Shown here: in pieces, positions 4,259-58,561 of the stretch | How positions within the stretch are numbered: position 1 is the stretch's first letter | How the letters are laid out: the number at the start of each line of letters is the position of its first letter | Assembly (NCBI RefSeq): GCF_004363655.1 | Contig: NZ_SNZH01000008.1 | Span: forward strand, 1-64,000 | Origin: Tahibacter aquaticus | Lineage (GTDB): Bacteria; Pseudomonadota; Gammaproteobacteria; Xanthomonadales; Rhodanobacteraceae | DNA: 64,000 nucleotides | Direction of reading: 5' to 3' | The notes under the pieces: model-generated | The model's input: only the letters and a program-made list of their open reading frames with translations | Database searches by the model: none | Told to the model about the DNA's origin: nothing | Position numbers and translations under genes: made by a program

Positions 4259-7200
4259 ATGGCCGTAGGGAATACGATAGGCAAACTCAACGCCGAACCG
4301 AAAATGCGGGAAAGCACGCCCGCCGGCAGTGCCAATCCTCCCGAGAAGAAAAGCTGGTGGAGCAAGTGGGGCGACGTCGTCCACACCGGCCTGGACATCC
4401 TCGGTGCCGTACCCGTCATCGGCATCGTTGCCGACGGCGCCAACGCGGCGATCTATGCGGCGGAAGGTGACTACGTCAACGCCGCCATTTCCGGCGCCTC
4501 GGCCGCAGCCAACCTGATCCCGGGCGGTGGCGCGGCGATGAAGGCCGGCAAGGCTGCCGTGGCGGTGGGCAAGCAGGCCATCAAGGCCACGGCCAAGGAA
4601 GGCGCGGAAGCGCTGGCCAAGAAGGCGGCCAAGGAACTGGCGGAAAAAGCCGCGAAAGAAGCCGCCGAAAAGGCTGCCAAGAAGGAAGCGGCCGAAGCCG
4701 CCGGAAAAAAGGCCGCCAAGAAAGCCGGCAGCAACAAGGGCGGCGGCGTCAAAGGCAAGGGCAAGAAGACCAAGCCCTGCAAAACCAAATTCGGCGTGGG
4801 CAAGCCGGTCAATCCGGTGCTCGGCATCAAATTCCTCAGCGGCGAGGAAGAACTCGATTTCAGCCTACCCGCGCCACTGCCGCTGCCCTGGCAGCGCAGC
4901 TATTTCTCCGACCAGCTCGGCAACGGCTGGCTGGGCCAGGGCTGGGCACTGCCGCTGTCCGTGCGCCTGCTGCGCCGGCAGGACGCCCTGGTCCTGATCG
5001 ACGAACAAGGCCGCGAGATCGAACTGCCGGAGCTGGAGCCCGGCGAAGTCGAACACAATCGCTACGAAGACGTGCTGCTGTCGCGCGAGGCGAACGGACG
5101 CTACCGCCTGAGTGCGCCCGACGGCGGCCTGCACCAGATCTTCGCGCCGCTGGGCCTGGACGGCGGCGATACCGACGGTTCGCGCTCGAACTACCTGCCG
5201 CTGGTCGCGCTGGAAGACCGCAACGGCAATCGCGTACGCATCTGCTACGACGAGCAGGGCTATCCGCGGCTGATCGAGGATTCCGCCGGCCGCCTGCTCG
5301 GCCTGCAGTTCGATGCAGTGCCCGGCGGCACTACCGCCGTACCGTTCGTGCGCCTGACCCGTGTCGTGCAATTGCACGGCGATGCGCGCAGCGACGGCAA
5401 CTGGGGCGCAGAGCAGATCGAAACCCTGGTGTCGTATGCCTACGACAGCGACGGTGACCTGAGCAGCGTGCGCAACGGCCAGGGCGAGCTGACGCGCGAG
5501 TTCCGCTATCGCGCGCACCTGCTGATCGAGCATAGCCAGCCCGGCGGCCTGTCCGCGAGCTACGAATACGACCGCTACGACCGCAGCGGCCGCGTGATAC
5601 GCCACACCACCAGCCTCGGCCAGAGCTGGCAGTTTGCCTACCTGGGCGGCGAAACCGTCGTCACCGACCCGCTGCAGCGCGTCACGCGCTATCGCTTCAA
5701 TGCCGACGAAGAACTGGTATCGCTGGTCGACCCCGACGGCGGCGAAACCCGCTTCGAGCTGGATGCCTATGGCAGGATCTCCCAGGTCGTCGACGCGGCC
5801 GGTGGAGTCTCGCGCTACCACTACGACGATGCGGGCAACGTAGTCAGCGTGGTCGAAGGCGGCGTGCGCATCGAACTGCATTACGACGAACGCTGGCGCC
5901 TGCCCAGCATCATCACCGATGCGAACGGCGCCAGCGTGCGCTACGACTACGACGCCGCCGGCAACCTGATCCGCCAGACCGACGCGCTCGGCCGCGCCAC
6001 CCAGTACAACCATGACGCTCGCGGCCTGGTTGTGCGCATCGCCGATCCGGCCGGTGGCATTCGCCGCTACGCCTACGACAGCCGCGGCCTGCTGCTCAGC
6101 GCCACCGACTGCAGCGGCAATACCACGCGCTATGGCTGGGATGCGCACGGCCACCTGAGTTCGATCACCGATGCACTGGGCGCGGTGACCGAATACCGCC
6201 ACGACCTGCGCGGCAACCTGCATCAGGCCACTTATCCCGACGGCGCGACCGAACGCTTCGACTACGACCACCTGGGCCGGGTGATTGCCGAGACCGATGC
6301 CAACGGTGCGCGGCAACAATGGGAATTATGCGCAGACGGCCTGCCGCAGGCACGCATCGATGCGCTGGGCCAGCGCATGAGCTACCAGTACGACCTGGCG
6401 CGGCGCCTGGTCGTGCTGACCGACCCGAACGGCGCGCACTACCGCTTCGCCTACGATGCGCTGGACAACCTGGTCGCCGAGCAGGGCTTCGACGGCCGCG
6501 TCACGGCCTATGCCTACGACGCCGTCGGCCGCGTGGCGCAGCGGCGCGAACTGGGCTTGCGTCCTGGCCCGGCGGTGGCGATACCGGCCGACGACACGCC
6601 CGAAACCCTGCTGACGCGCTACCTGCGCGACGGCAACGGCCGCCTGATCGAGAAAGTGACCGGCCGCGACAACCGTGCCCAGCGCGTGCGCTACGCCTAC
6701 GATGCGGTCGGCCGCCTGACCGAAGCGGTCAGCGGCGGCGGCCGCGTCGGCCTGGCCTATGACGAAGCCGGCCAGCTGGTGCAGGAGTCCAGCCTGGTGC
6801 AGGGACGCCAGTACACCTTGCAACATGTCTACGATGTGCTGGGTAACTGCGTCGAAACCACGCTGCCCGACGGGCGCACGCTGCAGCAGCGCTATCACGC
6901 CAGCGAACTGCACCAGATCCTGCTCGACGGCGAGGTGGTCAGCACCATCGAACGCGATGCGCTGCAGCGCGAAACCGTACGCAGCCAGGGCCAGCTGACC
7001 AGCTTCTACGACTACGACGCCGCGGGCCGTCTCAGCGCTAGCCGCGCGCGGAAGGCCAGTCACAGCGCCGAGGAACCGGTTGCGCGCCAGTATCACTACG
7101 ACCGCATCGGCAATATCACCGGCCTGCAGGACAAGCGCTTCGGCAGCACGCATTTCGAGTACGACCCGCTGTCGCGACTGATCCGGGCCAACCAGGAACG

Positions 7201-8392
7201 CTTCCGCTTCGACCCGGCGCACAACATCAGCGTCGACGGCAGCCGCGTGCCGGGCAACCGCATCGCCGCGTTCGAAGACCGCCAGTACCGCTACGACACC
7301 CACGGCGACCTGGTCGAGAAGAAGATCGGCGGCCATACCGCGCTGCTGCTGGACTACGACGCCGAGCACCAGCTCGCCTGCGCCCGCGTCAGCCGCGCTG
7401 GCGTGACGCAGGAAACCCGCTACGGCTACGACGCGCTGGGCCGCCGCGCCTGGAAGCAGGATGCGTTCGGCCTGACCACGTTCTGCTGGGCTGGCAACCG
7501 CCTGCTGTGCGAAAGCCGCGGCGCACGCACGCTGACCTACCTCTACGAACAGGACAGCTTCGCACCGCTGGCCCAGGTCGAAAGCGTGACGGCCCCGGCG
7601 CCGCAGCATGACAGTACCCACATTCGCTACTACCACAACGACCAGGCCGGCACGCCGCACGAACTCAGCGACGGCGACGGTGCCATCCGCTGGCGCGCCA
7701 GCTACAAGGCCTGGGGCAATACCGCGCTGGTGGAAGTGTTCATGGCCGAGGCTGCGCCGGGTGGCGAAGCCGTGCACCAGCCGCTGCGCTACCAGGGCCA
7801 GTACTACGACAGCGAAACCGGCCTGCACTACAACCGCTTCCGCTACTACGATCCGGACATCGGCCGCTTCGTCACGCAGGATCCGGTCAATCTGCTCGGC
7901 GGCGAGAACAACTACGAATACGCCCCCAATCCCGGCGCTTGGATCGATCCGTACGGCCTCAAGCGCAGCAAGTGCGGCAAAGATCCCTGCGACGGCGTCA
8001 ATCCCGCCGCCTGGGCGCGGCAATGGCAAGGTCATGGCGACTACCCGGGCCGCGACGTCTGGACCAATACCGTGCTGAAGAAGGGCACGGTGATCTACGG
8101 CGGCTGGCCGGGTCCGTCGGGCTTCCATTTCGATGCCAAGACCCTGGCTGCTTCGGGCGGCAGCAAATCCAAGCTGTTCCAGAGCCTGCAGGTACTGCCC
8201 AACCCGAAGCGCGGCTACCGGCCGCAGTACCAGAAATACATTGTCAAGAAAGATACTTGTGTCGCCACCGGCCAGGCACTGGCGCAAGACCCAAGCAAGG
8301 GCTTCGGCAGCGGCGGCGGTACCCAGTTCTTCCTGTCCAACTTCAAGAAGGCATTGAAGAAGGACGGCCCGCCCATCGGCCTGGGACCGTAG
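4259..8392 (+). CDS. Rhs polymorphic toxin 1, C-terminal toxin possibly TNT-like
   Basis: 1377 residues. Residues 25-100 hold a WWSKWGDVVHTGLDILGAVP region with two hydrophobic, small-residue segments, then an Ala/Lys-rich helical stretch (about 105-165), then the DUF6531 start of the Rhs shell (NPVLGIKFLSGEEELDF). About 1000 residues of YD repeats follow. The shell ends in GENNYEYAPNPGAWIDPYGL (Asp1230, Pro1231), the usual self-cleavage boundary. The last ~143 residues are the variable toxin: GTVIYGGWPGPSGFHFD, a YQKYIVKKD strand and a final GFGSGGGTQFFLSNF. The order G-x-x-G loop, Y-V-K strand, terminal GGG-T/V-Q resembles TNT-like NAD-consuming toxins, but this is a weak, motif-level match. 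No PAAR domain is present. The downstream small gene is the likely immunity gene. Confidence 0.88.
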   Translation: MAVGNTIGKLNAEPKMRESTPAGSANPPEKKSWWSKWGDVVHTGLDILGAVPVIGIVADGANAAIYAAEGDYVNAAISGASAAANLIPGGGAAMKAGKAAVAVGKQAIKATAKEGAEALAKKAAKELAEKAAKEAAEKAAKKEAAEAAGKKAAKKAGSNKGGGVKGKGKKTKPCKTKFGVGKPVNPVLGIKFLSGEEELDFSLPAPLPLPWQRSYFSDQLGNGWLGQGWALPLSVRLLRRQDALVLIDEQGREIELPELEPGEVEHNRYEDVLLSREANGRYRLSAPDGGLHQIFAPLGLDGGDTDGSRSNYLPLVALEDRNGNRVRICYDEQGYPRLIEDSAGRLLGLQFDAVPGGTTAVPFVRLTRVVQLHGDARSDGNWGAEQIETLVSYAYDSDGDLSSVRNGQGELTREFRYRAHLLIEHSQPGGLSASYEYDRYDRSGRVIRHTTSLGQSWQFAYLGGETVVTDPLQRVTRYRFNADEELVSLVDPDGGETRFELDAYGRISQVVDAAGGVSRYHYDDAGNVVSVVEGGVRIELHYDERWRLPSIITDANGASVRYDYDAAGNLIRQTDALGRATQYNHDARGLVVRIADPAGGIRRYAYDSRGLLLSATDCSGNTTRYGWDAHGHLSSITDALGAVTEYRHDLRGNLHQATYPDGATERFDYDHLGRVIAETDANGARQQWELCADGLPQARIDALGQRMSYQYDLARRLVVLTDPNGAHYRFAYDALDNLVAEQGFDGRVTAYAYDAVGRVAQRRELGLRPGPAVAIPADDTPETLLTRYLRDGNGRLIEKVTGRDNRAQRVRYAYDAVGRLTEAVSGGGRVGLAYDEAGQLVQESSLVQGRQYTLQHVYDVLGNCVETTLPDGRTLQQRYHASELHQILLDGEVVSTIERDALQRETVRSQGQLTSFYDYDAAGRLSASRARKASHSAEEPVARQYHYDRIGNITGLQDKRFGSTHFEYDPLSRLIRANQERFRFDPAHNISVDGSRVPGNRIAAFEDRQYRYDTHGDLVEKKIGGHTALLLDYDAEHQLACARVSRAGVTQETRYGYDALGRRAWKQDAFGLTTFCWAGNRLLCESRGARTLTYLYEQDSFAPLAQVESVTAPAPQHDSTHIRYYHNDQAGTPHELSDGDGAIRWRASYKAWGNTALVEVFMAEAAPGGEAVHQPLRYQGQYYDSETGLHYNRFRYYDPDIGRFVTQDPVNLLGGENNYEYAPNPGAWIDPYGLKRSKCGKDPCDGVNPAAWARQWQGHGDYPGRDVWTNTVLKKGTVIYGGWPGPSGFHFDAKTLAASGGSKSKLFQSLQVLPNPKRGYRPQYQKYIVKKDTCVATGQALAQDPSKGFGSGGGTQFFLSNFKKALKKDGPPIGLGP

Positions 8393-9022: not shown

Positions 9023-12000
9023 ATGGCCGTAGGCAATACGATAGGCAAACTCACCACCGAGCCGATGTTGCCCCAGAGCACGCCGGCCGGCAGCGGCAAC
9101 CCGCCGGAGAAGAAAAGCTGGTGGAGCAAGTGGGGCGACGTCGTCCACACAGGCCTGGACATTCTCGGTGCCGTACCCGTGATCGGCATCGTCGCCGACG
9201 GCGCCAATGCGGCGATCTACGCCGCCGAAGGCGACTACGTCAACGCCGCCATTTCCGGCGCCTCGGCCGCAGCCAACCTGATTCCCGGCGGCGGTGCGGC
9301 GATGAAGGCCGGCAAGGCCGCCGTGGCGGTGGGCAAGCAGGCTATCAAGGCCACCGCCAAGGAAGGCGCGGAAGCGCTGGCCAAGAAGGCGGCCGCGGAG
9401 CTGGCTGAAAAGGCCGCAAAAGAAGCCGCCGAAAAAGCCGCCAAGGAAGGCGCCGAGGCGGCGGGCAAGAAGGCCGCCAAGAAGGCGGGCAGCGATGCGG
9501 GGGGCGGGGTCAAGGGCAAGGGCAAGAAGGCCAAGACCTGCACCTCGAAGACCTGCGTGCTGCGGCCGGTAAACCCCATCCTCGGCGTCAAATTTCTCGA
9601 CGGCGCCGACGATCTCGACTTCAATCTGCCGGCGCCGATGGCGCTGCCCTGGCAGCGCAGCTATTTTTCCGACCAGATCGGCAACGGCTGGCTGGGGCAG
9701 GGCTGGTCGCTGCCGTTGTCGGTGCGTCTGCTGCGTCGGCGCGATGGCCTTGTTCTGGTCGACGAACAGGGGCGCGAGATCGAATTGCCGGAACCGGAAA
9801 TCGGCGAACAGGAATTCGATCGCTACGAAGAAATCCTGCTGGCGCGCGAGGCAAACGGCCGCTTTCGCGTCAGCTCCAGCGACGGTGCTACGCACCAGAT
9901 ATTTGCGCCGCTGGAACTGGATGCCGGGGATCCGCTGGGCGAGCGCGCCAGCTATCTGCCCCTGGTTGCAATCGAGGATCGCAACGGCAACCGTGTCCGG
10001 TTGATCTACGACGGCAGCGGGCTGCCGGCGCAGGTATTCGACGCGGCCGGCCGCGTACTCGGCCTGCATTTCGAGAACCTGGCCGTTGCCGCCGATGCGT
10101 TTGCGCCACGCCTGCGCGCCGTCGCGCTGCTGCGCGGCGAGCCCCTGGCTAACGGCAGCTGGCCGCGAGAGCGGATCGAGATGCTGGCAGGCTACGAGTA
10201 CAGCGCCGAGGGCGATCTGGTGCGCGTGCGTGGCGGTGGCGGTGCCGTGCGCAGAGAGTACATTTATAACAATCACATTCTGGTGGAACATTCCGTCCCC
10301 GGCGCCGTCGTCGCGCGCTATGAGTACGACCAGTACAGCCCGGCCGGAAAGGTCATACGCCATACCAGCAATCTCGGCGATGCCTGGCAGTTCACTTACC
10401 TGGCCGGCGAAACCATCGTCAGCGACAGCCTGGGCCGCCAGACCCGCTATCGCTTCAACGCCGACGCCGACCTGATCGGCGTGATCAATCCGGCGGGCGG
10501 CCACACAAGGGTCGAAGTCAACGCCTGGAGCAAGCCGACGCGGGTCACCGATCCTGCGGGCAAAGCGACGCGATATCACTACGACGCCGAAGGCAATGTC
10601 GCTGCCATCGTCGATGCGAGCGGCGCGCGCACGCAGTTCCAGTTCGACGAACGCTGGGCTTTGCCGACCGCCATCACCGACCCGAACGGCGCAGTGACGC
10701 GCTACGCCTACGACGCTGCCGGCAATCTCATTCGCGAGACCAATGCGCTGGGCCATGTAACCGCCTACAACCACGACGAGCGCGGCCTGCTGGTGCGCCT
10801 GGTCGATGCGCATGGCGGCCGGCAGAAGCTCGAATACGACAACCGCGGCCTGTTGCTTGCGCATACCGATTGCGTCGGTCATGCGACGCGTTATGGCTGG
10901 GACGACTACGGCAATCCAGTTTCCATCGAGCATGCCGACGGCGGGCGTACCGAATACGTCTACGACCAGAACCGCAGGCTGCAGCAGATCGTTTATCCGG
11001 ACGGTTCGCGCGAATCGTATGCCTACGATGCGGCCGGCCGGATGGTTGCGACCACCGATACCGGCGGACAGGTTACCCGCTGGGAGCTGGCGCCCGACGG
11101 CCTTCCCGTAACGCGCACCGACAGCTTGGGGCACCGTTTCAGCTACCAATACGACGTGGCGCGGCGCCTGGTCGTGCTCACCGACGAGAACGGGGCGTTT
11201 TTCCGCTTCGCCTACGACGTCAACGACAACCTGATCGGCGAGCAAGGATTCGACGGTCGCGTCACCCTGTATCGCTACGACGCAGCCGGTGCACTGCTGG
11301 AACGGCGGGATCTCGGACTGCAGCCCGGCCCGGGCGTGAACCTGGCCGATGACAGCATTCCCGAATTGCTGCGCACGCAGTATCTGCGCGACCCGGCCGG
11401 CAACGTGATCGAGAAGATCACCGGACGCGCACGCGACAAGCGCGTCGCGACGAGCAAGTACACCTACGACGCGGTCGGACGCGTGCTTTCGGCCATCAAC
11501 GGCAGCGGCCATGTCCATCTTGCTTACGACGAGCTGGGGCGGCTGGTCGGCGAAACCACGCAAAGTCTCGGCCGCAGCCAGACCATAGAGCATCGCTACG
11601 ATGCCCTCGACAACCGCATTGAGAGCACGCTGCCGGACGGCCGCCGCGTTACGCAGCACTACTACGGCCCAGGCTACCTGCATCGCATCGAGCTGGACGG
11701 CACGCTGATCAGCGAGATCGAGCGCGACGTCATGCAGCGCGAAACCGTGCGCAGCCAGGGCGCACTGACTAGCTATTTCGACTACGACGCGATGGGCCGG
11801 CGCATTGGTCAGCGCGCGCGCAAGAACGGCGTGAGCGCGCCGGAAAACATCGCCAGGCGCTACGTCTACGATCGTGCGGGTAACCTGCAGGCGATGAGCG
11901 ACCAACGCTTTGGCCAGGTCAGCTACAGCTACGACGCCATCGGCCGGGTAACCCGCGCCAATGCCGAACGCTTTGCTTTCGATCCGGCGCACAACCTGGT

Positions 12001-13120
12001 CGAAGCTGCCGGCCAGGTCGTGCGCGGCAATCGCCTCGCCGCCTACGAAGACAAGCGGTTCGTATACGACACGCACGGCAATCTGGTCGAGAAGCGCGTC
12101 GGCGGGCATACCCGGCTGCGTCTGGACTACGATCCGGAACACCAGCTCGAAGCCGTGCAGATCGAGCGCAACGGCGTGGCGCAGCAGGTCAGTTACGGCT
12201 ACGACGCCTTCGGCCGGCGTTGCTGGAAGCGCGACAGTTTCGGCCTGACGCATTTCTGCTGGGACGGCAATCACCTGTTGCAGGAAACGCGCGGCGACCG
12301 CTGCCTGACCTATCTGTACGAGCCTGACAGTTCCGTGCCGGTTGCGCAGTTGGAATCGCTTGCCGTCGACGCAGCAGCACGGCCCGACCGGCCTGCACGT
12401 GTGCGCTATTTCCACACCGACCAGATTGGCGCACCGCGCGAACTGACCGAGTCCGACGGCAGCATCAGCTGGCGGGCGAACTATCGCGCCTGGGGCAATA
12501 CGCTCGTCGTCGAATATCTCGAGCCCGCCGCTGCCGTTGCATTGCAAGGCGAGCCCGTGCACCAGCCCATCCGATTCGAAGGGCAATATTTCGACGCAGA
12601 AACCGGCCTGCACTACAACCGTTTCCGCTACTACGATCCCGATATCGGCCGATTCGTCAGCCAGGATCCGATCAGTGTCTGGGGTGGTTCCAATACCTAT
12701 CAGTACGCACCGAACGCCCAGGGCTGGATCGATCCCTGGGGCTTGGCGCGCTGTCCCAAGGCTTCCTATCCCTCCTGGATGAAGGCCAAGAAGGGGATGG
12801 AGCGTCACCACATCATTCCGTACCATCTGAAGGACCACCCGGTATTCCAGTCGTCGGGACTGAATATCAACGCGGCACACAACATGATGTATCTGCCACG
12901 CAAGGCGGGCGGTGCAGGCACCAAGACACGGCATTCGTACTTTCGCCTGGGCGATTGCCATCACAACAAATACGACGACTACATGCAGAACGTTCTCGAC
13001 GACGTACAGCGCCAGGCCAAGACCAACAAATGGGATGCGCAGCGGCTGCAGAAGGAACTTATGGATATTGCGAAGACTTCGCGGCGCGAACTCAATGCAG
13101 GGCGGAAGGTATGGCCGTGA
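9023..13120 (+). CDS. Rhs polymorphic toxin 2 with C-terminal AHH-type HNH nuclease
   Basis: 1365 residues. The first ~165 residues and much of the shell are nearly identical to Rhs toxin 1: the same WWSKWGDVVHTGLDILG segment and Ala/Lys helix, then DUF6531 and YD repeats. The shell ends at WIDPWGL (Asp1237, Pro1238). The last ~124 residues differ completely from the first copy. They contain ERHHIIPYHLKDHPVF (His1262-His1263), LNINAAHNMMYLP and a distal HNKYDDYM, matching the AHH family of the HNH/endonuclease VII superfamily. Predicted activity is metal-dependent cutting of DNA in a rival cell after Rhs self-cleavage. As in copy 1 there is no PAAR domain, so loading needs the separate adaptor or PAAR protein. 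The last ten bases overlap the next gene. Confidence 0.9.
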   Translation: MAVGNTIGKLTTEPMLPQSTPAGSGNPPEKKSWWSKWGDVVHTGLDILGAVPVIGIVADGANAAIYAAEGDYVNAAISGASAAANLIPGGGAAMKAGKAAVAVGKQAIKATAKEGAEALAKKAAAELAEKAAKEAAEKAAKEGAEAAGKKAAKKAGSDAGGGVKGKGKKAKTCTSKTCVLRPVNPILGVKFLDGADDLDFNLPAPMALPWQRSYFSDQIGNGWLGQGWSLPLSVRLLRRRDGLVLVDEQGREIELPEPEIGEQEFDRYEEILLAREANGRFRVSSSDGATHQIFAPLELDAGDPLGERASYLPLVAIEDRNGNRVRLIYDGSGLPAQVFDAAGRVLGLHFENLAVAADAFAPRLRAVALLRGEPLANGSWPRERIEMLAGYEYSAEGDLVRVRGGGGAVRREYIYNNHILVEHSVPGAVVARYEYDQYSPAGKVIRHTSNLGDAWQFTYLAGETIVSDSLGRQTRYRFNADADLIGVINPAGGHTRVEVNAWSKPTRVTDPAGKATRYHYDAEGNVAAIVDASGARTQFQFDERWALPTAITDPNGAVTRYAYDAAGNLIRETNALGHVTAYNHDERGLLVRLVDAHGGRQKLEYDNRGLLLAHTDCVGHATRYGWDDYGNPVSIEHADGGRTEYVYDQNRRLQQIVYPDGSRESYAYDAAGRMVATTDTGGQVTRWELAPDGLPVTRTDSLGHRFSYQYDVARRLVVLTDENGAFFRFAYDVNDNLIGEQGFDGRVTLYRYDAAGALLERRDLGLQPGPGVNLADDSIPELLRTQYLRDPAGNVIEKITGRARDKRVATSKYTYDAVGRVLSAINGSGHVHLAYDELGRLVGETTQSLGRSQTIEHRYDALDNRIESTLPDGRRVTQHYYGPGYLHRIELDGTLISEIERDVMQRETVRSQGALTSYFDYDAMGRRIGQRARKNGVSAPENIARRYVYDRAGNLQAMSDQRFGQVSYSYDAIGRVTRANAERFAFDPAHNLVEAAGQVVRGNRLAAYEDKRFVYDTHGNLVEKRVGGHTRLRLDYDPEHQLEAVQIERNGVAQQVSYGYDAFGRRCWKRDSFGLTHFCWDGNHLLQETRGDRCLTYLYEPDSSVPVAQLESLAVDAAARPDRPARVRYFHTDQIGAPRELTESDGSISWRANYRAWGNTLVVEYLEPAAAVALQGEPVHQPIRFEGQYFDAETGLHYNRFRYYDPDIGRFVSQDPISVWGGSNTYQYAPNAQGWIDPWGLARCPKASYPSWMKAKKGMERHHIIPYHLKDHPVFQSSGLNINAAHNMMYLPRKAGGAGTKTRHSYFRLGDCHHNKYDDYMQNVLDDVQRQAKTNKWDAQRLQKELMDIAKTSRRELNAGRKVWP

Positions 13121-52888: not shown

Positions 52889-53251
52889 GCCCCGGCAAAA
52901 CGTGGCGGCGGCGGCCGCCCCGGACAGCACACCGAGCCGGCCCCGCGCCGGCTTTTTGTTGCCTGCCGCGTCGCGGTGCGCACCGGCTCGCCGTCCGGCT
53001 GGCCACAGCCCGCCCATGCCCAGGGTCGTGCCCGGCCGTATACGGCACCGTGCGGCAACTGTCGCTAAATCTACTTGTCATTAAATAACATCGACTTGGC
53101 GAAGGTTCTTCAGGCCGGGGCGCTGTCCGCGGCGACGGATCGTAGAAATTTCATGTCCGCCAATGATCTCCAGTCTTGATGATATGGAAAAATTATGTAG
53201 AGTGTTTAGTTGCTGTTTATACAAACAGCATTAACCCAATGGGGACAACGC
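52889..53251. promoter_or_regulatory. AT-rich leader of the small-peptide locus, with maeB terminator and a perfect dyad
   Basis: After the maeB terminator (52935-52957) the composition falls sharply from GC-rich to AT-rich from about 53060 to 53250, unlike any other intergenic region here. An 8-bp-arm perfect dyad, TGCTGTTT - ATAC - AAACAGCA (53211-53230), sits ten bases before the GGGGAC ribosome site of the peptide gene. It is placed like an operator or a leader hairpin controlling initiation. Confidence 0.5.
52935..52957 (+). terminator. Terminator of maeB
   Basis: Seven-bp stem AGCCGGC / GCCGGCT with a CCCGC loop followed by five T (52953-52957), 47 bases after the stop. Confidence 0.85.
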
Positions 53252-53383
53252 ATGAAAAAGTTTGTCGTTCGCGAAGTCGAAACCGTCAAGACTACGTCCG
53301 CGATGTACGAATGCCGTATGTGCTTCCCGGATTGGTACTGCGACATCATCGAAGGCCCGCAGGTACCCGGCGACGGTTTCTGA
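53252..53383 (+). CDS. 43-residue cysteine-containing peptide, candidate RiPP-type precursor
   Basis: ATG 53252 with GGGGAC six bases upstream. The product begins MKKFVVREVETVKTTSAMYE, a charged strand-like leader without a hydrophobic signal. It goes on to a core with C21-x2-C24-x5-C30 embedded in aromatic and acidic residues (ECRMCFPDWYCD) and ends IIEGPQVPGDGF. A short alternating hydrophobic/charged leader followed by a compact Cys/aromatic core is the form of ribosomal peptide precursors that are read by PqqD/RRE domains; the next gene encodes such a domain. It is followed by a terminator-like hairpin, which would make this short message more abundant than the downstream genes. Too short for routine gene calling. 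Precursor role is inferred. Confidence 0.6.
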   Translation: MKKFVVREVETVKTTSAMYECRMCFPDWYCDIIEGPQVPGDGF

Positions 53384-53397
53384 GGTCGTGCGATGCG

Positions 53398-53423
53398 GAG
53401 GACGGGCTTGCCCGTCCTCTTTT
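53398..53423 (+). terminator. Terminator/attenuator between the peptide gene and the protease gene
   Basis: Nine-bp perfect stem GAGGACGGG / CCCGTCCTC with a CTTG loop and a short TTTT run (53420-53423). It sits 14 bases after the peptide stop and 20 before the protease start. The short T-run suggests partial read-through. Confidence 0.75.
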
Positions 53424-53442
53424 CGTGGTTCCGCCAACGGAT

Positions 53443-54654
53443 ATGTCCATGCAGGATTCGGCGCCGCAAGTGCTTGCGTATTCCGTCCAGCCGGACGGCG
53501 ACGATTTCATCATCGGCTCGGTCGCGCGCGGTTCGTTCCTGTCGGTACCGGCCGAGGTGGTGGAAATCCTGCGCGCGTTCGAGGCCGGTCACGGTCCGGA
53601 ACAAGTGCGCCGGGACTATCTGCAAAAGCACGGCGAGACGCCGGATCTCGACGACCTGGTGCAGGTGCTGACTGCCCACGGCATCCTGGCTGATCCCGCT
53701 GCGGCAGGCGTTGCCGATGCCGCACCGGCAAAGCCGGCGAAGCGCTATCACTTCGAATGGATCACGCCGCCGGTCGCGCGGCTGGTCTGGAACCGCTACA
53801 CGCTGGGCCTGATGGCGCTGACTGTCGCCGCGGCCCTGCTGGTGCTGCTGTGGCAGCCCGCGCTGTTGCCGGGCTGGCGCGCGTTCTATTTCCCCCAGGA
53901 CACAGCCAGCCAGGTGCTGGGCCTGATGCTGCTGGGCATGGCGTCCACCTTTCTCCACGAAATGGGCCATCTCACGGCGGCGCGCGCGGCCGGCGTGTCC
54001 TGCCGCTTCAGCATCGGCAACCAGCTCTGGTTCGTGGTCTGGTATACGGAAATGAACGGCATCTGGGCGCTGCCGCGCAATCGCCGCTACCTGCCGATAC
54101 TGGCCGGGCCGCTGGTCGATCTGGTTTCGGCGGCGCTGATCGTGCTGCTGCTGGCCGCCGCCGCGCACTATGCCTGGCCGCTGCCGGCCTTGACGCGGAA
54201 CATCCTCTCGGCGCTGCTGTTTCTCTACATCGTGCGCATCATCTGGCAGTGCTACTTTTTCGTTCGTACCGATTTCTACTATGCATTCTCCAACCTGCTC
54301 GGCTGCAAGCGCCTGATGCAGGACACGGAAGACTGGCTGCGCAACCGCTGGGCGCGGCTGCGGGGCAGGGCGGAAAAAGTGGACCAGGCTGGCCTGCCCG
54401 CACACGAGCGGCGCATGCTGCCCGGCTATGCGGCGATCTGGCTGCTCGGCCGCAGCGTGGCCCTTAGCATGCTGTTGTTCGTGCAGCTGCCCCTGCTGCT
54501 GAGCTACCTGCTGTTGTTGTTCGAATCGACCACGGCACCTGCCGGCAGCCAGGGCTCCAGCGCCAGTGCGCTGCTGGCCGGCCTGCTGTTCAGCACCTTG
54601 CTGCTCGCCGGCCTGGCGATGTGGGTGCGCCAACTGATGCTGCGCAAAGGATAA
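53443..54654 (+). CDS. Membrane zinc metalloprotease (site-2/M50-like) with N-terminal PqqD/RRE-like domain
   Basis: 403 residues from ATG 53443; GTG 53425 in the same frame is possible, while the open frame further upstream only shadows the peptide gene. Residues 15-85 resemble a PqqD-type winged fold (FIIGSVARGSFLSVPAEVVEILRAFEAGHGPEQVRRDYLQ, then DLVQVLTAHGIL). From 115 on there are about six to seven membrane segments. TFLHEMGHLTAARAAGV carries the HEMGH zinc site (His172, Glu173, His176), and LPILAGPLVDLVSAAL (Asp226) matches the position of the third M50 ligand motif. Predicted role: binding of the upstream peptide by its PqqD-like part, then cleavage or export at the inner membrane. 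It ends four bases before the TPR gene. Confidence 0.75.
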   Translation: MSMQDSAPQVLAYSVQPDGDDFIIGSVARGSFLSVPAEVVEILRAFEAGHGPEQVRRDYLQKHGETPDLDDLVQVLTAHGILADPAAAGVADAAPAKPAKRYHFEWITPPVARLVWNRYTLGLMALTVAAALLVLLWQPALLPGWRAFYFPQDTASQVLGLMLLGMASTFLHEMGHLTAARAAGVSCRFSIGNQLWFVVWYTEMNGIWALPRNRRYLPILAGPLVDLVSAALIVLLLAAAAHYAWPLPALTRNILSALLFLYIVRIIWQCYFFVRTDFYYAFSNLLGCKRLMQDTEDWLRNRWARLRGRAEKVDQAGLPAHERRMLPGYAAIWLLGRSVALSMLLFVQLPLLLSYLLLLFESTTAPAGSQGSSASALLAGLLFSTLLLAGLAMWVRQLMLRKG

Positions 54655-54658
54655 GCCG

Positions 54659-56572
54659 ATGTCTGCACGCTTCGCCCTGCCCGAACTGACCCTGCCTGCC
54701 ACGGGCCCAGGCACGCTGACGATTGCAGCCGCCGCTGCCGGCGATGCGCGCGATAGCTGGCTGCGCGCTGCCGTCGCCCAGGCCGCGCCAGCGGCGGCGG
54801 TGCATCATCTGGACTGTCGCCTGCGCCTGGGCGGTCCCTGGGCCGGACTGGCCGACTATCTGCAGGCGCTGCTGCCGCAGATCGACGCGGCCGCGCCAGA
54901 CCTGCTGCAGCGGCATCGCTACGAACTGGCCCAGGCCGTGCCGTCGCTGCGCTCGCGCTTTCCCTTGAGCGAGGCCAGCCTGACCGACGCCTCGCCGGTA
55001 AAGGAGCGCGTGCGCAGCTATCCGGTCGATCGCGCCTATCGCCTGCTGCACGGCCTGATCGAACTGCTGGACGAATGGCTGCCCCAGGCCGGCCGGCGCC
55101 AGGTGCTGGTGCTGCATCATTTCGACGAAACCAGTCTGCTGATGCGGCGCTTCTTCCACGATCTGGTTCGGCGGCGCCTGGCCGCACTGCCGCTGGACCT
55201 GGTGGTCGCGGTCGCGCCGGCGAATGCCCTCGACGTCGCCGCGAAATTCGACGCCGGCACGCTGCAGCACATCGAGGCGGCGCTTGCGCCCGGTAGCGCC
55301 GCGCCGGACATGGCAGCCTTGCGCGCACAGGCGCAGGCACTGGAAGAACAGGTCAACCGCGCCATGGGCCGCGCCGACAATCTGCTGCCGCGCCTGATCG
55401 ATCTGCTCGACAGCCTGGGCGAGCATGCCCAGGCCCAGCGCTGGCGCTCGGCCACGCTGGCGCTGTACAACCATTACGGCCTGTACGAGGACGCGCTGTT
55501 CTTCGGCGAACCGATCCTGGCCGACCTGGACGAGATCGACCAGGGCGAGCGCCGCTTTGGCCGCTGGAACATTGTCTCGGGCCTGTTCAATGCCTATGCG
55601 GCCCTCGGCCGCCCGGAAGATGCGCTGGCCGTGGTGCGCGACGAGGCCATGGCCAAGATCAGCGAGCCGAATGATCTGATCAGCATCTACTACACCATGG
55701 CCATGCTGTATTGCCGCTTCCTGCCCCGGCGCGATTTCGCCCTGGCCGAGGAATACCTGCACAAGTCGATGGCGCTGATCGACGTAGTCACCTTGCCTGA
55801 GGCGGAGAAGCACTACCTCGCCGTGTTCAATCTCAACGGCGTGGCTTTCATCCGCTTCCAGCAGGGGCGTATCGCCGAGGCGGCGGAACTGTGCCGCGAA
55901 GGCTACGAGCGGCTGGAAAAACACCTGGGTGCGAGCGAGTACCGCCTGCACCGCTCTGTTCTTCTATACAACATTGCACAGGTGTATTCGGCAACACGCG
56001 CCTACGACGAGGCGATTGCCTACTACAGCCAGGCGATGGAGCTGGACCCGCGCTATTCCGAGTACTACAACGAGCGCGGCGGCGTGTATCTGAAAGTCGG
56101 CCGGCTCGACGAGGCGGTACGCGATTTCCACGAGGCCATCCGCCTGAGCGCACCGTATTTCGAGGTGTGGACCAACCTCGGCCAGGCCTACCGGCGCATG
56201 GGCAATGCGACAGCGGCCGTCGAGGCGTACAGCCACGCGCTGGACATAGAGCCGGCCGCGGCGCTGGCGCGCATAGGCCGTGCCGAAGCCCATGCGCAGC
56301 TCGGCCAGGTCGATGCGGCATTGGCCGACTACGGCATTGCCCTGACGCGCGATCCGGCCGATGCCCAGCTCTGGTCCAACCGCGCCGTGCTGCTATACGA
56401 GGCCGGTCGCGTGACCGAGTCCCTGCACGATCTGGACGAAGCGGTGCAGCGCGCGCCGAGCCTGCCCGACCTGTACGAAAACCGCGCGATCGCGCTGGCT
56501 TCGCTGCAGCGGCACGAGGAGGCGCAGCGCGACCGCGACTACGCTTTGCATTTGCAGGCGGCGGCTGCCTGA
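54659..56572 (+). CDS. TPR protein with a degenerate ATPase-like N-terminal domain
   Basis: 637 residues, four bases after the protease stop. The first ~215 residues look like a STAND/AAA-type remnant: a hydrophobic strand (GTLTIAAAAAGDARDSWL) where a Walker A would be but without GK[ST], and a Walker-B-like RRQVLVLHHFDE, followed by PLDLVVAVAP. Residues about 250-420 are helical repeats (YEDALFFGEPILADLDEID). Residues about 420-630 are clear TPRs (AYDEAIAYYSQAMELDPRYSEYYNERGGVYLKVGRLDEAVRDF; AAVEAYSHALDIEP). No signal peptide or membrane segment. Such proteins act as scaffolds; here it probably works with the protease and peptide. It is the last gene of the unit. Confidence 0.7.
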   Translation: MSARFALPELTLPATGPGTLTIAAAAAGDARDSWLRAAVAQAAPAAAVHHLDCRLRLGGPWAGLADYLQALLPQIDAAAPDLLQRHRYELAQAVPSLRSRFPLSEASLTDASPVKERVRSYPVDRAYRLLHGLIELLDEWLPQAGRRQVLVLHHFDETSLLMRRFFHDLVRRRLAALPLDLVVAVAPANALDVAAKFDAGTLQHIEAALAPGSAAPDMAALRAQAQALEEQVNRAMGRADNLLPRLIDLLDSLGEHAQAQRWRSATLALYNHYGLYEDALFFGEPILADLDEIDQGERRFGRWNIVSGLFNAYAALGRPEDALAVVRDEAMAKISEPNDLISIYYTMAMLYCRFLPRRDFALAEEYLHKSMALIDVVTLPEAEKHYLAVFNLNGVAFIRFQQGRIAEAAELCREGYERLEKHLGASEYRLHRSVLLYNIAQVYSATRAYDEAIAYYSQAMELDPRYSEYYNERGGVYLKVGRLDEAVRDFHEAIRLSAPYFEVWTNLGQAYRRMGNATAAVEAYSHALDIEPAAALARIGRAEAHAQLGQVDAALADYGIALTRDPADAQLWSNRAVLLYEAGRVTESLHDLDEAVQRAPSLPDLYENRAIALASLQRHEEAQRDRDYALHLQAAAA

Positions 56573-56645
56573 GTCGGTCGCGACGACGCTGCGGGCAACG
56601 GCCAGGCCGAGCCTCGTCGCGGCGGCGAAGCAGAACCAGCGCCTT

Positions 56646-57351
56646 TCGGAAACCATCGGATCGATGAGATGGCGGCCATGCGCGGCCTGGTGCACGTGGC
56701 CATGGCCACGTGCACCAGGCCGCATCGGTTCATCGTATTCGAGCATTCAACGCGCTGGGACTGACCGGCCGGCTGGAAGTGTTCGCCGCGGCCAACGATT
56801 GGGTGAGCGCGCCGAAGCTGGGATGGGGGCGATATGCTGGCTGCTGCGGCACGCTGCCGTACGATGACGGCAACACTCTGGGGCAAGGCGCGCGGAATAT
56901 CCGGCTGCTGCCAACGGTGCTTTCTGTACCGCCAGGAACGATTGCGACATCCGTAGACCAGACACTGACTTTCACGGGGGCGAACTCCATCAGTTTTCCT
57001 GATCTGGGCGATTTTTCCAGTCCTGATTATGCTGATCGACAGCGCCTCAGTGTCGGCGTCACGCACGGAACCTTAACGGTAGTCAACACGGCCGGTGTCA
57101 GCTTTATCGGGCCGAACGGTTCGGCCGCATTTGAGTTCGAGGGTTCAAGTAGCGGCGTGCGAGTGGCGCTGGATGGGCTGATCTCTACACCTGTTGCAGG
57201 CTACGAAGGCGGTGACCTGCTCGTCGTCACATTGAGTGGGCGTTTCGTTCATCCGCAAGGCCAGGCTGGCGTAGTAGAGATTGATCGCAAGGACATCCCG
57301 CTGCGCGTAGGTACAACGCCGGTGACATTGCAGTCCTTCGACATCGATTGA
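56646..57351 (+). pseudogene. Broken duplicate of the GlxA-type regulator 5' end, joined to a cadherin-like fragment
   Basis: 56646-56800 matches 57497-57660 (untranslated region plus the first ~35 codons of the intact regulator) base for base except for scattered changes. The copied start codon (56702) reads MATCTRPHRFIVFEHS and then goes out of frame by a one-base loss, and the +1 frame continues FNALGLTGRLEVFAAANDW. After 56800 the similarity stops. From about 56905 to 57351 the frame encodes a cadherin/adhesin-like module: LSVPPGTIATSVDQTLTFTGANSISFPDLGD, TLTVVNTAGVSFIGPNGSAAFEFEGSSSGVRVALDGL, then GDLLVVTLSGRF. Both pieces are incomplete, so I treat the region as decayed. A 42-bp palindrome lies in the copied part. 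Confidence 0.65.
56682..56723. repeat. Perfect 42-bp palindrome without a loop
   Basis: Each arm is 21 bases: GCGGCCTGGTGCACGTGGCC then A, followed by the exact reverse complement; the centre is between 56702 and 56703. The matching place in the intact gene copy (about 57531-57585) is only a partial palindrome. Confidence 0.9.
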
Positions 57352-57553
57352 CGTCCGCGACGGCACACCCAAGCGCCGAGTAGTCGCGATGACGCCTCGC
57401 CCTTGCAATACACGGCGGCATGCGTAGGCGACAGAAATTGTGTGAGTGGCTTGCACCATCGCCATCAACGTGTTGGTCGCGCGGTTCCCGCCTGTCCGAA
57501 ATCGTCGGATCGATGGCATGGCGGTCATGGGCGGCCTGGTGCATGCTGCCGTC

Positions 57554-58561
57554 ATGGCCACGTCTACGCGCACCCGCCGCATCGGTTTCGTCGTCTTCGA
57601 GAATTTCAACGCGCTGGATCTGACCGGCCCGCTGGAAGTGTTTGCCGCGGCCAATGACCTGGCGCAGGAACAGGCTGCCCGCCGTGCCAGGCCGCTTTAC
57701 GAAGCGGTGATTCTCGGCCCGGCCGTGCGCGTCTATCGGGCCGAGTCCGGCGTGGCGGTCAAGGCCGATGTGCGGCTGGCTGCGTCACCGCCGCTGGATA
57801 CCGTGCTGATGCCGGGCGGTCATGGCATCCGCGAGCCGGCCACGCTGCGGCGCCTGGCTGCCTGGCTGCAGCAACAGGGGCGTGTGCGCCGCATCGCCTC
57901 GGTCTGCACCGGCGCCTATGCACTGGCCGAGGCCGGCCTGCTCGACGGTTGCCGCGTCAGCACGCACTGGCGCCATGCGCAGAAGCTGGCGCAGCGCTAT
58001 CCGGCCTTGCAGGTCGATGCCGATGCGATCTTCCTGCACCAGGGCCGCTGCTATACCTCGGCCGGCATCAGCGCCGGCATCGACCTGGCCCTGGCCCTGC
58101 TGGCCGAGGACCACGGCTCTGCGCTGGCACTGGCCGTGGCACGGGAACTGGTAGTGCCGTTCAAGCGCGACGGCGGGCAGAAACAGTATTCCGATTCGCT
58201 TGCTTTCCAGACCCAGGCCGGCGACCGCCTGGGCGAACTGAGTGCCTGGATGCTGGCCAATCTGGCACAGGACCTGTCCCTGCCCCGACTGGCGCAGCGC
58301 GCCTGCGTGAGTCCGCGCCAGCTCAGCCGGCGCTTCCAGCAGGCCTTCGGCCTGGCCCCGGCGGCGTATGTGGAAAAGTTGCGTGTGGAACAGGCGCGCC
58401 AGCGTCTGAGCGAAAGCCGCGCCAGCATTGCGCGCGTTGCCGCCGCAGTGGGTTTTCGCAGTGCCGATGTGTTCCGCCGTGCGTTCGAGCGGCGCGTCGG
58501 CGTCAACCCGGCGACGTATCGCGCGCGTTTCGGCGCGGCACTCGCCGCGTCTTCGACTTAG
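57554..58561 (+). CDS. GlxA-type transcriptional regulator (DJ-1/PfpI domain plus AraC helix-turn-helix)
   Basis: 335 residues from ATG 57554 (MATSTRTRRIGFVVFENFNALDLTGPLEVFAAAND); in-frame ATGs further up (57512-57524) are less likely. Residues 10-180 are the DJ-1/PfpI glutamine-amidotransferase-like domain with the nucleophile-elbow Cys in SVCTGAYALAEAGLLDG and TSAGISAGIDLAL. Residues 230-330 are the AraC DNA-binding domain with two helix-turn-helix units (LSLPRLAQRACVSPRQLSRRFQQAFG and ARVAAAVGFRSADVFRRAFERRVGVNPATYR). Family members sense small metabolites. A serine hydrolase gene follows nine bases downstream with its own AGGAG in this gene's end, so the regulator may be co-transcribed with it. 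Confidence 0.92.
   Translation: MATSTRTRRIGFVVFENFNALDLTGPLEVFAAANDLAQEQAARRARPLYEAVILGPAVRVYRAESGVAVKADVRLAASPPLDTVLMPGGHGIREPATLRRLAAWLQQQGRVRRIASVCTGAYALAEAGLLDGCRVSTHWRHAQKLAQRYPALQVDADAIFLHQGRCYTSAGISAGIDLALALLAEDHGSALALAVARELVVPFKRDGGQKQYSDSLAFQTQAGDRLGELSAWMLANLAQDLSLPRLAQRACVSPRQLSRRFQQAFGLAPAAYVEKLRVEQARQRLSESRASIARVAAAVGFRSADVFRRAFERRVGVNPATYRARFGAALAASST

Follow-up and report, generated by a model that had tools for sequence, protein, structure and literature searches.

We analysed a 64,000-nt stretch of DNA from Tahibacter aquaticus (GCF_004363655.1, NZ_SNZH01000008.1, positions 1 to 64,000, forward strand), referred to below as the window. Three adjoining genes on its (+) strand form a compact unit, which encodes a tiny peptide, a membrane protease and a tetratricopeptide repeat (TPR) protein. 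The features of the unit are as follows.

53176..53203, (+) strand: candidate promoter, TTGATG-16 bases-TAGAGT, read from the sequence by its likeness to the consensus
53212..53229, no strand assigned: near-palindrome GCTGTTTATACAAACAGC, matching at 16 of 18 positions, a possible operator or 5' hairpin between the promoter and the start codon
53252..53383, (+) strand: candidate precursor peptide gene, 43 codons, stop codon TGA
53398..53423, (+) strand: terminator-like hairpin GAGGACGGGCTTGCCCGTCCTC followed by TTTT, between the peptide and protease genes
53443..54654, (+) strand: membrane metalloprotease of RRE-M50 type (RRE, recognition element of ribosomally synthesized and post-translationally modified peptides, RiPPs), 403 aa, ATG at 53443
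53467..53679, (+) strand: N-terminal PqqD/RRE-like domain by predicted fold, approximately residues 9-79 of the protease
54659..56572, (+) strand: STAND-like/TPR protein, 637 aa, assigned by Pfam TPR_1 and AlphaFold2/Foldseek

A sequence-only reading of this DNA had described a 43-residue peptide with the motif C-x2-C-x5-C, and the open reading frame (ORF) at 53252-53383 (+), read back from the sequence, encodes it. The gap from the peptide gene to the protease ATG, given there as 60 bases, is indeed short and measures 59; the four bases from the protease stop (the gene ends at 54654) to the TPR ATG at 54659 are as stated. The start assigned to the unit, 53211, falls beside the palindrome and not at the peptide start, 53252. 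The usual RiPP modifying enzymes were said to be missing, and a Pfam scan of seven ORFs at 49.5-60.1 kb of the window finds none.

The peptide is MKKFVVREVETVKTTSAMYECRMCFPDWYCDIIEGPQVPGDGF, with cysteines at residues 21, 24 and 30. On the basis of its conservation pattern it can be divided into a leader of approximately 20 residues, MKKFVVREVETVKTTSAMYE, and a Cys-containing core, CRMCFPDWYCDIIEG... A scan of a genome collection gave three relatives of the protease at 68-70% identity, in a Lysobacteraceae metagenome-assembled genome (MAG; locus L004), a Lysobacterales MAG (L005) and Tahibacter harae P2K (L006). In all three the peptide lies upstream and the TPR gene downstream of the protease gene, the TPR gene of L005 being cut by the contig end. 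The leader is basic and conserved across these close relatives, MKKFxVREVETVKTT, and the four peptides share 24 invariant columns, including all three Cys. Over the first 33 codons of the peptide gene the nonsynonymous rate (dN) is 0.08-0.15 for pairs among the four loci, and its ratio to the synonymous rate (dS) is 0.167, 0.100 and 0.117 in three of the six pairs, dS being saturated in the other three, which give no ratio. Frames 2 and 3 of the region contain a stop in every pair compared. The sequence-only reading had made its case depend on a conserved small frame upstream of orthologous proteases and on protein-level constraint in the 43-codon frame; the former is found in 3/3 close relatives and the latter is present, with dN/dS of 0.10-0.17 where computable. 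These comparisons of sequence support the view that the peptide is a real, selected, precursor-like product, kept across species as a unit with an RRE-like protease.

The promoter elements and their spacing are the same in T. harae; L005 has TTGATG with TACTAT 18 bases on, and the elements were not seen in L004. The palindrome is identical in L005 and L006, and L004 has the arms GCTGTTT...AAACAGC with a longer spacer. SOS/LexA control through this CTGT-N8-ACAG palindrome was considered: GCTGT-N8-ACAGC occurs at 11 sites in the 7.27 Mb genome, one of them the cassette palindrome, against 4 for a reversed-pattern control, and the 11 sites are a mixed set. A strong hairpin stands 3' of the peptide gene in 4/4 loci, with a sequence that has changed between them (fold z = -2.0, -5.5, -2.8 and -3.0 relative to mononucleotide shuffles); it is followed by four T in the window and L006, by three in L004 and by only two in L005. 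Since the peptide gene has its own likely promoter and a terminator-like hairpin, its transcripts probably outnumber those of the two downstream genes. The likely purpose of the hairpin would be a short, abundant peptide transcript with weaker read-through into the protease and TPR genes.

The protease carries an HExxH motif (HEMGH) at residues 172-176 and a third ligand, D277; H172, E173, H176 and D277 are invariant in 14/14 homologues. Pfam M50 matches the protease alone at 4.3e-6 and 26.7 bits, under the cut-off of 27.2, and the score rises to 28.5 bits when the in-frame neighbours are included. As a membrane protein that carries both HExxH and the third-ligand Asp, the product qualifies by sequence as an M50/site-2 protease. 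Its AlphaFold2 model has a mean predicted local distance difference test score (pLDDT) of 58, with a block at pLDDT 66-85 over residues 11-80, for which the order b-b-b-a-a-a is predicted. The top two Foldseek matches in the PDB are both TbiB1, a stand-alone lasso-peptide RRE whose structure was determined together with its leader (5v1v_A and 5v1u_B; probability 1.00, TM score 0.72 by target length, E 0.12-0.17). None of the Foldseek matches of the model reaches 0.001, and most of the further ones listed are membrane channels with low probability. Of the PqqD-like N-terminus and HEMGH site described from the sequence alone, the HEMGH is confirmed, and the fold stands as a prediction, with E 0.12-0.17 to TbiB1 and pLDDT 58. 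An RRE at the protease N-terminus is likely on this model.

The TPR protein consists of a degenerate a/b N-terminal region without Walker A, the motif ERVRSY at residue 116, and a TPR superhelix (Pfam TPR_1, 9.4e-34). The superhelix is also what Foldseek finds with the AlphaFold2 model, whose mean pLDDT is 68 and whose N-terminal part is partly below 50. As had been noted from the sequence, there is a Walker-B-like element, VLVLHHFDE at residue 149, and no GxxxxGK[ST]. The latter pattern occurs in 0/15 members of the family, four of which (L065-L068) show looser remnants of Walker A, such as GPDGAGKH in Vibrio and SPDGGGKA in Streptomyces. These remnants suggest a STAND-type NTPase that lost its P-loop, and sub-threshold matches to AAA_16 (6.6e-4, L067) and AAA_22 (0.019, L063) likewise point to a STAND-like ancestry. 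The motif ER.R.Y is present in 12/15 members, at residues 115-131 or, in the shorter Bacilli forms, 70-79; it is missing from L056, L062 and L071. Pfam finds no DNA-binding domain in the TPR protein. None of the PADLOC models of known anti-phage defence proteins was matched at 1e-3 by the protease or TPR protein of the window, by the TPR protein of Rhizobium or by the first of the Vibrio TPR ORFs.

In the window the cassette is flanked by a malic enzyme gene (Pfam malic and PTA_PTB) and a gene for a secreted-looking protein; besides the cassette, an AraC/DJ-1 gene and a beta-lactamase-family gene lie between these flanks. The T. harae cassette sits between the same malic enzyme and secreted-looking protein genes. 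Within the genus, the TPR gene is found in 3/8 genomes and the protease in those same three. Five congeners are free of the cassette, and in the three that were opened (L083-L085) the flanking genes are approximately 150, 156 and 237 bases apart, counted between alignment ends. As the flanks stand side by side in cassette-free congeners, the cassette is a discrete module that was gained or lost here. In the family, the protease has a match at 1e-5 in 9/233 genomes, six of them distant (27-31% identity). In the class, the protease profile matches at least 1 of 369 genomes, the window only, with up to five candidates scored per genome; in the phylum, each of the TPR profiles matches at least 1 of 398, again the window only, with up to two and up to five candidates scored. 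The peptide profile has a match at E <=1 in 251 of 398 genomes across the order, and is significant in two of the cassette-bearing genomes only (G000 and G227, ~1e-28); the other matches start at 0.006, are partial and were taken as chance. Viral contigs gave no match for the protease or for two TPR queries, and phages gave none for the Rhizobium TPR N-terminus. ThiF-family genes number 3, 2 and 1 in the cassette-bearing G000, G227 and G230 (the last 87%-complete) and 3 and 3 in the cassette-free G229 and G225, that is, no extra ThiF-family gene accompanies the cassette in this comparison.

Homologues of the TPR protein occur in Rhizobium, Mesorhizobium, Agrobacterium, Microvirga, Streptomyces, Vibrio and Nonomuraea, and in the Bacilli Bacillus badius, Priestia megaterium, Exiguobacterium and, weakly, Listeria seeligeri. 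The N-terminal part of the Rhizobium protein matches that of the window at 3e-16 by BLASTP, and seven homologues align with the window protein over its full length, at 24-27% identity in Rhizobium, Agrobacterium, Microvirga and Streptomyces. Beside the window and its close relatives, we opened 14 further TPR loci (L056, L062-L072, L075 and L076) from Actinomycetota, Alphaproteobacteria, Vibrio and Bacilli. In 14/14 the TPR gene, or in L056 the protease gene, has a tiny ORF directly before it. Examples are MKKKIAETNTVIRTTTPYTGTV in Rhizobium, MKKKVALSKASIRTTTPYTGTV in Agrobacterium, where the ORF spans the origin of the circular record, MKKSMLKKLPKLNKKVRTTTPYQAA in Vibrio, MKVKVSEKQDTVRTTTSYVAG in Streptomyces, MKKVKVKATPVKAANAVVYSGN in B. 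badius and MKTVVIKKNSVRAKVVLGYN, present three times, in Exiguobacterium. In two L. seeligeri loci the expected tiny ORF upstream of the TPR gene is present with an MFS gene next to it, which is an observation of position only. The gene run contains an exporter or membrane protease gene in 11 of the 14 loci (MFS in eight, LysE, EamA and M50 in one each); L064 and L066 have none and L071 was outside the scan. The run in Streptomyces L067 and Vibrio L068 goes on to a gene for peptidase S9 (prolyl oligopeptidase), and in two Bacilli loci the MFS gene has an O-methyltransferase gene before it.

Some of these loci are worth recording in their own right. Tiny peptide, STAND/TPR, MFS and peptidase S9 genes stand in a row in Streptomyces (L067:3586-10040) and Vibrio coralliilyticus (L068:3809-9512); in the latter two ORFs make up the TPR protein, and an unassigned ORF of 515 aa precedes the 207-aa one that holds the S9 domain. 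In Bacilli (L069:3601-7716, L070:3600-7710 and L072:1276-6802) the tiny peptide and TPR gene are accompanied by O-methyltransferase and MFS genes, and by a 77-84 aa protein with no Pfam match above cut-off. Exiguobacterium has a divergent ThiF gene besides, and three tandem peptide copies.

Plasmids yielded a second group of loci. A tblastn search with the window protease gave 25 records, 21 of them from Streptomyces, and a second search from a relative also gave 25. Ten of these loci were opened: L056, which is TPR-linked, and L048-L055 and L057, in which a ThiF-family gene lies upstream of the protease gene (9/10), with one gene between them in Priestia. The host replicons of these ThiF and M50 pairs are from Streptomyces, Nocardia, Actinacidiphila, Nonomuraea and Priestia, and the proteases share 24-31% identity with that of the window. 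Tiny ORFs with a similar leader accompany 9/9 pairs. Upstream of ThiF they are MKKIVVRKLATVTVPQLRPGT, in three tandem copies, in Priestia and MKKKKLEVKIRKLEKIETTINRGGASG in Nonomuraea, with others in Nocardia and Actinacidiphila; downstream of the protease, MEIKVRKVEDVKATGLQV is found in all four of L049, L052, L055 and L057, and L048 has two tiny ORFs with the Cys-containing ends ...LETTAQSCPRCA and ...LETTAVCHEDVPCS. Another related leader in this group is MEKIEIRMLDKLETTAVCHEDVPCS. No TPR gene of the window's kind was seen beside the ThiF/M50 pairs; a BTAD regulator lies upstream in three (L049, L052 and L055), that of L049 being a BTAD/NB-ARC/TPR protein. The precursor-like ORFs of L048-L055 and L057 are mostly unannotated, and these loci are possibly a separate family of ThiF peptides.

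L056, on a plasmid of Streptomyces NBC_01450, has the window's gene order of tiny peptide, protease and TPR protein. Its peptide is Cys-free, with the leader MRKISVRRTEPIKVTSAPF..., MRKISVRRTEPIKVTSAPFSHQPAIVPV from an inner ATG. Since the same order occurs here with a Cys-free peptide, the Cys motif does not define the type of system. Within the close group the three Cys do not vary; in L048 Cys recur in a different pattern, and most of the peptides seen lack them. The TPR protein of L056 matches the N-terminal part of the window protein at 2e-5 over 95 residues by BLASTP, and at E 2.2e-4 with probability 45 by hhalign.

The similarity of the leaders was evaluated with a hidden Markov model (HMM) built only from residues 1-20 of the four close peptides and run on 6563 six-frame segments of 20 other loci. 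At >=7 bits there were five matches, all of them tiny ORFs beside M50 or TPR genes, compared with a mean of 0.65 and a maximum of 2 in 20 runs on 9-base-block shuffles. At 6.5 bits there were eight, seven such ORFs and one chance match (shuffles, 0.85). The seven true matches represent three distinct peptides, that of Nonomuraea L071, the Priestia triplet and MEIKVRKVEDVKATGLQV, the last of which was first found by this HMM and not by eye. In the window and 14 other loci the HMM found nothing else at >=5 bits. When each group was left out in turn, the HMM built from the others placed the tiny peptide first in 15/22 loci (10/13 groups), second in two, third to fifth in four and sixteenth in one, with E-values, calculated per one locus, that are weak (4e-5 to 10). 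This test is partly circular, because the peptides were first chosen by position and look. In two loci that were read only after this, the L048 ORFs rank 1 and 2 of 376 segments with held-out HMMs, and the Agrobacterium ORF ranks 1 of 240, helped by its close Rhizobium relatives. In several of the peptides a [KR]TT element is followed by Tyr.

Taken together, these data lead us to regard as fairly probable a minimal RiPP-type cassette, in which a ribosomal peptide is captured by its leader and processed at the inner membrane. As far as sequence can tell, the locus has one general feature of RiPP systems, a genetically encoded precursor with a conserved leader and a variable core. The peptide gene would probably be transcribed in excess by virtue of its own promoter and hairpin, and would yield a precursor with a conserved basic leader and a short core containing three conserved Cys. 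The RRE-like domain of the protease would then capture the leader, as its predicted fold and the conservation of the leader suggest; the M50 site, intact by sequence, would make its cut at or within the inner membrane and so free the core, which would reach the periplasm or be exported. For the TPR protein, which probably descends from a STAND NTPase and lost the P-loop, we propose that it binds the precursor and presents it, keeps it soluble or modifies it, since loci that lack the protease also pair such a protein with tiny peptides of this sort. Export, the chemistry of the core and this TPR role are steps that we infer. In the relatives the membrane or protease role would be filled by MFS (twice together with prolyl oligopeptidase), LysE or EamA, so that systems of this kind would in general consist of a precursor, a handler of TPR type and an output step by a membrane protein or protease. 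A cassette for peptide maturation and release would be in keeping with the leader conservation, the hairpin, the RRE-like protease and the replacement of M50 by exporters in relatives. As for the peptide system originally proposed, a selected, precursor-like peptide beside an RRE-like M50 with intact catalytic residues stands; its framing by Cys and M50 was too narrow, the TPR protein being found with such tiny peptides at loci without M50 as well.

Several points weigh against this interpretation. Leader binding and cleavage are themselves inferred, the protease model is of low confidence and its Foldseek E-values are weak, and no exporter lies next to the window cassette. The cassette family is rare, at least 1 of the 398 genomes drawn from the phylum. 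Tiny ORFs are common, and for most of the peptides the initial choice was made by eye on the basis of position; several of their starts are inner ATGs that we chose, and the Microvirga frame has 72 codons. The Mesorhizobium peptide is the one that ranks 16th in the leave-one-group-out test, and in L. seeligeri the tiny ORFs are outside the HMM top 6 and the TPR protein has NQLRFY for ER.R.Y. The TPR loci without M50 need another reader of the leader, and a shared leader is therefore not proof of RRE binding. Finally, the L056 TPR protein is only modestly like that of the window in its N-terminal part and lacks ER.R.Y, and its protease groups in the tree with the ThiF-linked Streptomyces proteases L049/L055 (support 0.915), apart from that of the window. 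From this placement the pairing of protease and TPR protein may have been assembled more than once, and that of L056 may be a separate assembly.

The cassette shares elements with several known systems. In daptides, MpaP (NCBIfam NF041824) is described as an RRE fused N-terminally to an intramembrane site-2 protease that removes the leader, and short precursors lie beside the peptidase, as in the window (PMC10036551). Two distant relatives from the window's family, L011 and L014, match NF041824 at 1.4e-24 and 4.3e-26, below the 300-bit cut-off, and the window protease has no match at E up to 10. Unlike daptides, the window peptide has neither the ELExMEAP leader motif nor a C-terminal Thr, and the seven ORFs scanned include a TPR protein instead of a daptide enzyme. 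Epipeptides have beside their small precursor an M50 membrane protease (YydH/EpeP/LiaK, NF058609), which is credited with cleavage and export (PMC10885120); unlike them, the window protease scores 16.2 bits against a cut-off of 225, and no radical SAM enzyme is among the scanned ORFs. Nor is there a ThiF among them, in contrast to the ThiF (TLAT) RiPPs. The ThiF and M50 pairs share with the window a homologous M50 and a related leader, and the ThiF is theirs only. The N-terminus of the window protease is like the lasso RRE TbiB1 (PDB 5v1v/5v1u) in predicted fold, and the scanned ORFs, unlike lasso systems, contain no lasso gene. Clusters of tiny peptide, STAND/TPR and MFS genes (Vibrio coralliilyticus, Streptomyces NBC_00503 and others) share with the window a homologous TPR protein, in most cases with ER.R.Y, and a gene for a tiny basic peptide, which in them directly precedes the TPR gene; an exporter, in two cases with a soluble peptidase, replaces the M50. 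By the membership criteria applied to their sequences, the window cassette is placed outside daptides, epipeptides and ThiF RiPPs. In its putative working it resembles an RRE-M50 leader-processing system, and the TPR family possibly defines a new class. TPR genes have been described in Bacteroidales RiPP clusters, with no M50 named in the part of that account available (PMC10352776). Among the matches listed from the open-access literature, which are no proof of absence, no peptide/STAND-TPR pair is described. Biphenomycin BipC, first named a TPR protein by an MFS gene, was rejected as a relative, as it is a UPF0489 arginase (PMC12707348).

Also in the window's family, in other genera, L011:1108-3877 and L014:485-2478 contain daptide-like M50 genes after short ORFs, which have an I-x-E-L-E-x-R-[LV]-E stretch and Cys-containing ends. 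The next gene in L011 is one that we take to be arginase-like.

Other explanations of the cassette have to be weighed. Eep-type M50 proteases mature exported pheromones, and RRNPP systems classically use TPR superhelices as peptide receptors. Here an Eep-like M50 could mature an exported pheromone and the TPR protein could be its intracellular receptor, with a target outside the cassette. Peptide and TPR genes are neighbours in 14/14 further loci (in L056 with the protease gene between them), the palindrome by the promoter might serve as an operator, and TPR genes in RiPP biosynthetic gene clusters have been suggested to be such receptors (PMC10352776). We nevertheless consider this signalling scheme unlikely: the TPR protein has no DNA-binding domain by Pfam, some related loci contain RiPP-type tools (prolyl oligopeptidase, O-methyltransferase, ThiF), and distant loci are alike in the leader and not in the C-terminus, a pattern opposite to that expected of a pheromone. 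Small molecules are the usual cargo of LysE, EamA and MFS transporters, and the presence of these transporters in related loci would suit a TPR protein that is itself a modifying enzyme (e.g., a flavin enzyme like BhaC1) acting on Tyr or Cys of the core, the peptide perhaps being a scaffold of TglG type. BhaC1 of the ammosamide pathway is reported to be a flavin mononucleotide enzyme with a TPR domain (PMC11002830), the M50 proteases TglG/TmoG are described as cutting modified residues off the C-terminus of a scaffold in the pearlin pathways (PMC10885120), and several peptides have the Tyr after [KR]TT. However, the N-terminal region, modelled with low confidence, matches no recognised enzyme family, and none of the seven window ORFs scanned is a peptide aminoacyl-tRNA ligase (PEARL), the LanB-like enzyme that in pearlins adds an amino acid to the scaffold peptide, which leaves this explanation rather improbable.

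A secreted or periplasmic Cys peptide that binds a metal or forms disulfides, with the M50 as a mere leader peptidase, would account for the invariance of Cys 21, 24 and 30 in 4/4 close homologues and for the Cys pairs that end the two ThiF/M50-linked peptides of L048. It is made very unlikely by the Cys-free peptides of L056 and most other loci, from which a function of the Cys can be only a local use of the system. Proximity is all that favours the peptide being a small regulator or inhibitor of the M50, which would act in regulated intramembrane proteolysis of another target and not have the peptide as its substrate; the leader-like form of the peptide, the hairpin terminator after its gene and the occurrence of like peptides beside TPR genes without any M50 argue against this to the point that we give it hardly any weight.

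Returning to the RiPP-type cassette, we propose, tentatively and with slightly less than even confidence, that it belongs to an undescribed class that crosses phyla. The constant parts of its members would be a tiny precursor, approximately 20-45 residues long if the inner ATG starts are right, with a basic leader of the MKKxxVRxxExVxTT type, and a P-loop-less STAND/TPR binder of the precursor, perhaps also a modifier. Output modules would be interchangeable: M50 here, and in other loci LysE, EamA or MFS, the last alone or joined by prolyl oligopeptidase. If so, the leader type crosses Pseudomonadota, Actinomycetota and Bacillota, with M50, ThiF, MFS, prolyl oligopeptidase, LysE and EamA as mutually unrelated partners. 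Genome mining for ribosomal peptides mostly starts from known modifying enzymes, which would explain why such tiny genes were overlooked; the decayed STAND/TPR protein and the leader type would then be new handles for mining. The two- and three-gene systems would also be testable for the action of a leader-guided membrane protease and the role of TPR proteins in maturation.

Other features of the window were observed outside the cassette. Downstream of the TPR gene, at 56682-56723, there is a perfect 42-base palindrome, GCGGCCTGGTGCACGTGGCCATGGCCACGTGCACCAGGCCGC. The stretch 56640-56795, between the TPR gene and the DJ-1/AraC gene, duplicates a stretch at the start of the latter gene, 57489-57654 (82% over 167 aligned positions). 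Elsewhere, ORFs of 1377 and 1365 codons at 4259-8392 and 9023-13120 encode a tandem pair of large proteins that begin almost identically, MAVGNTIGKLNAEPKM... and MAVGNTIGKLTTEPML...

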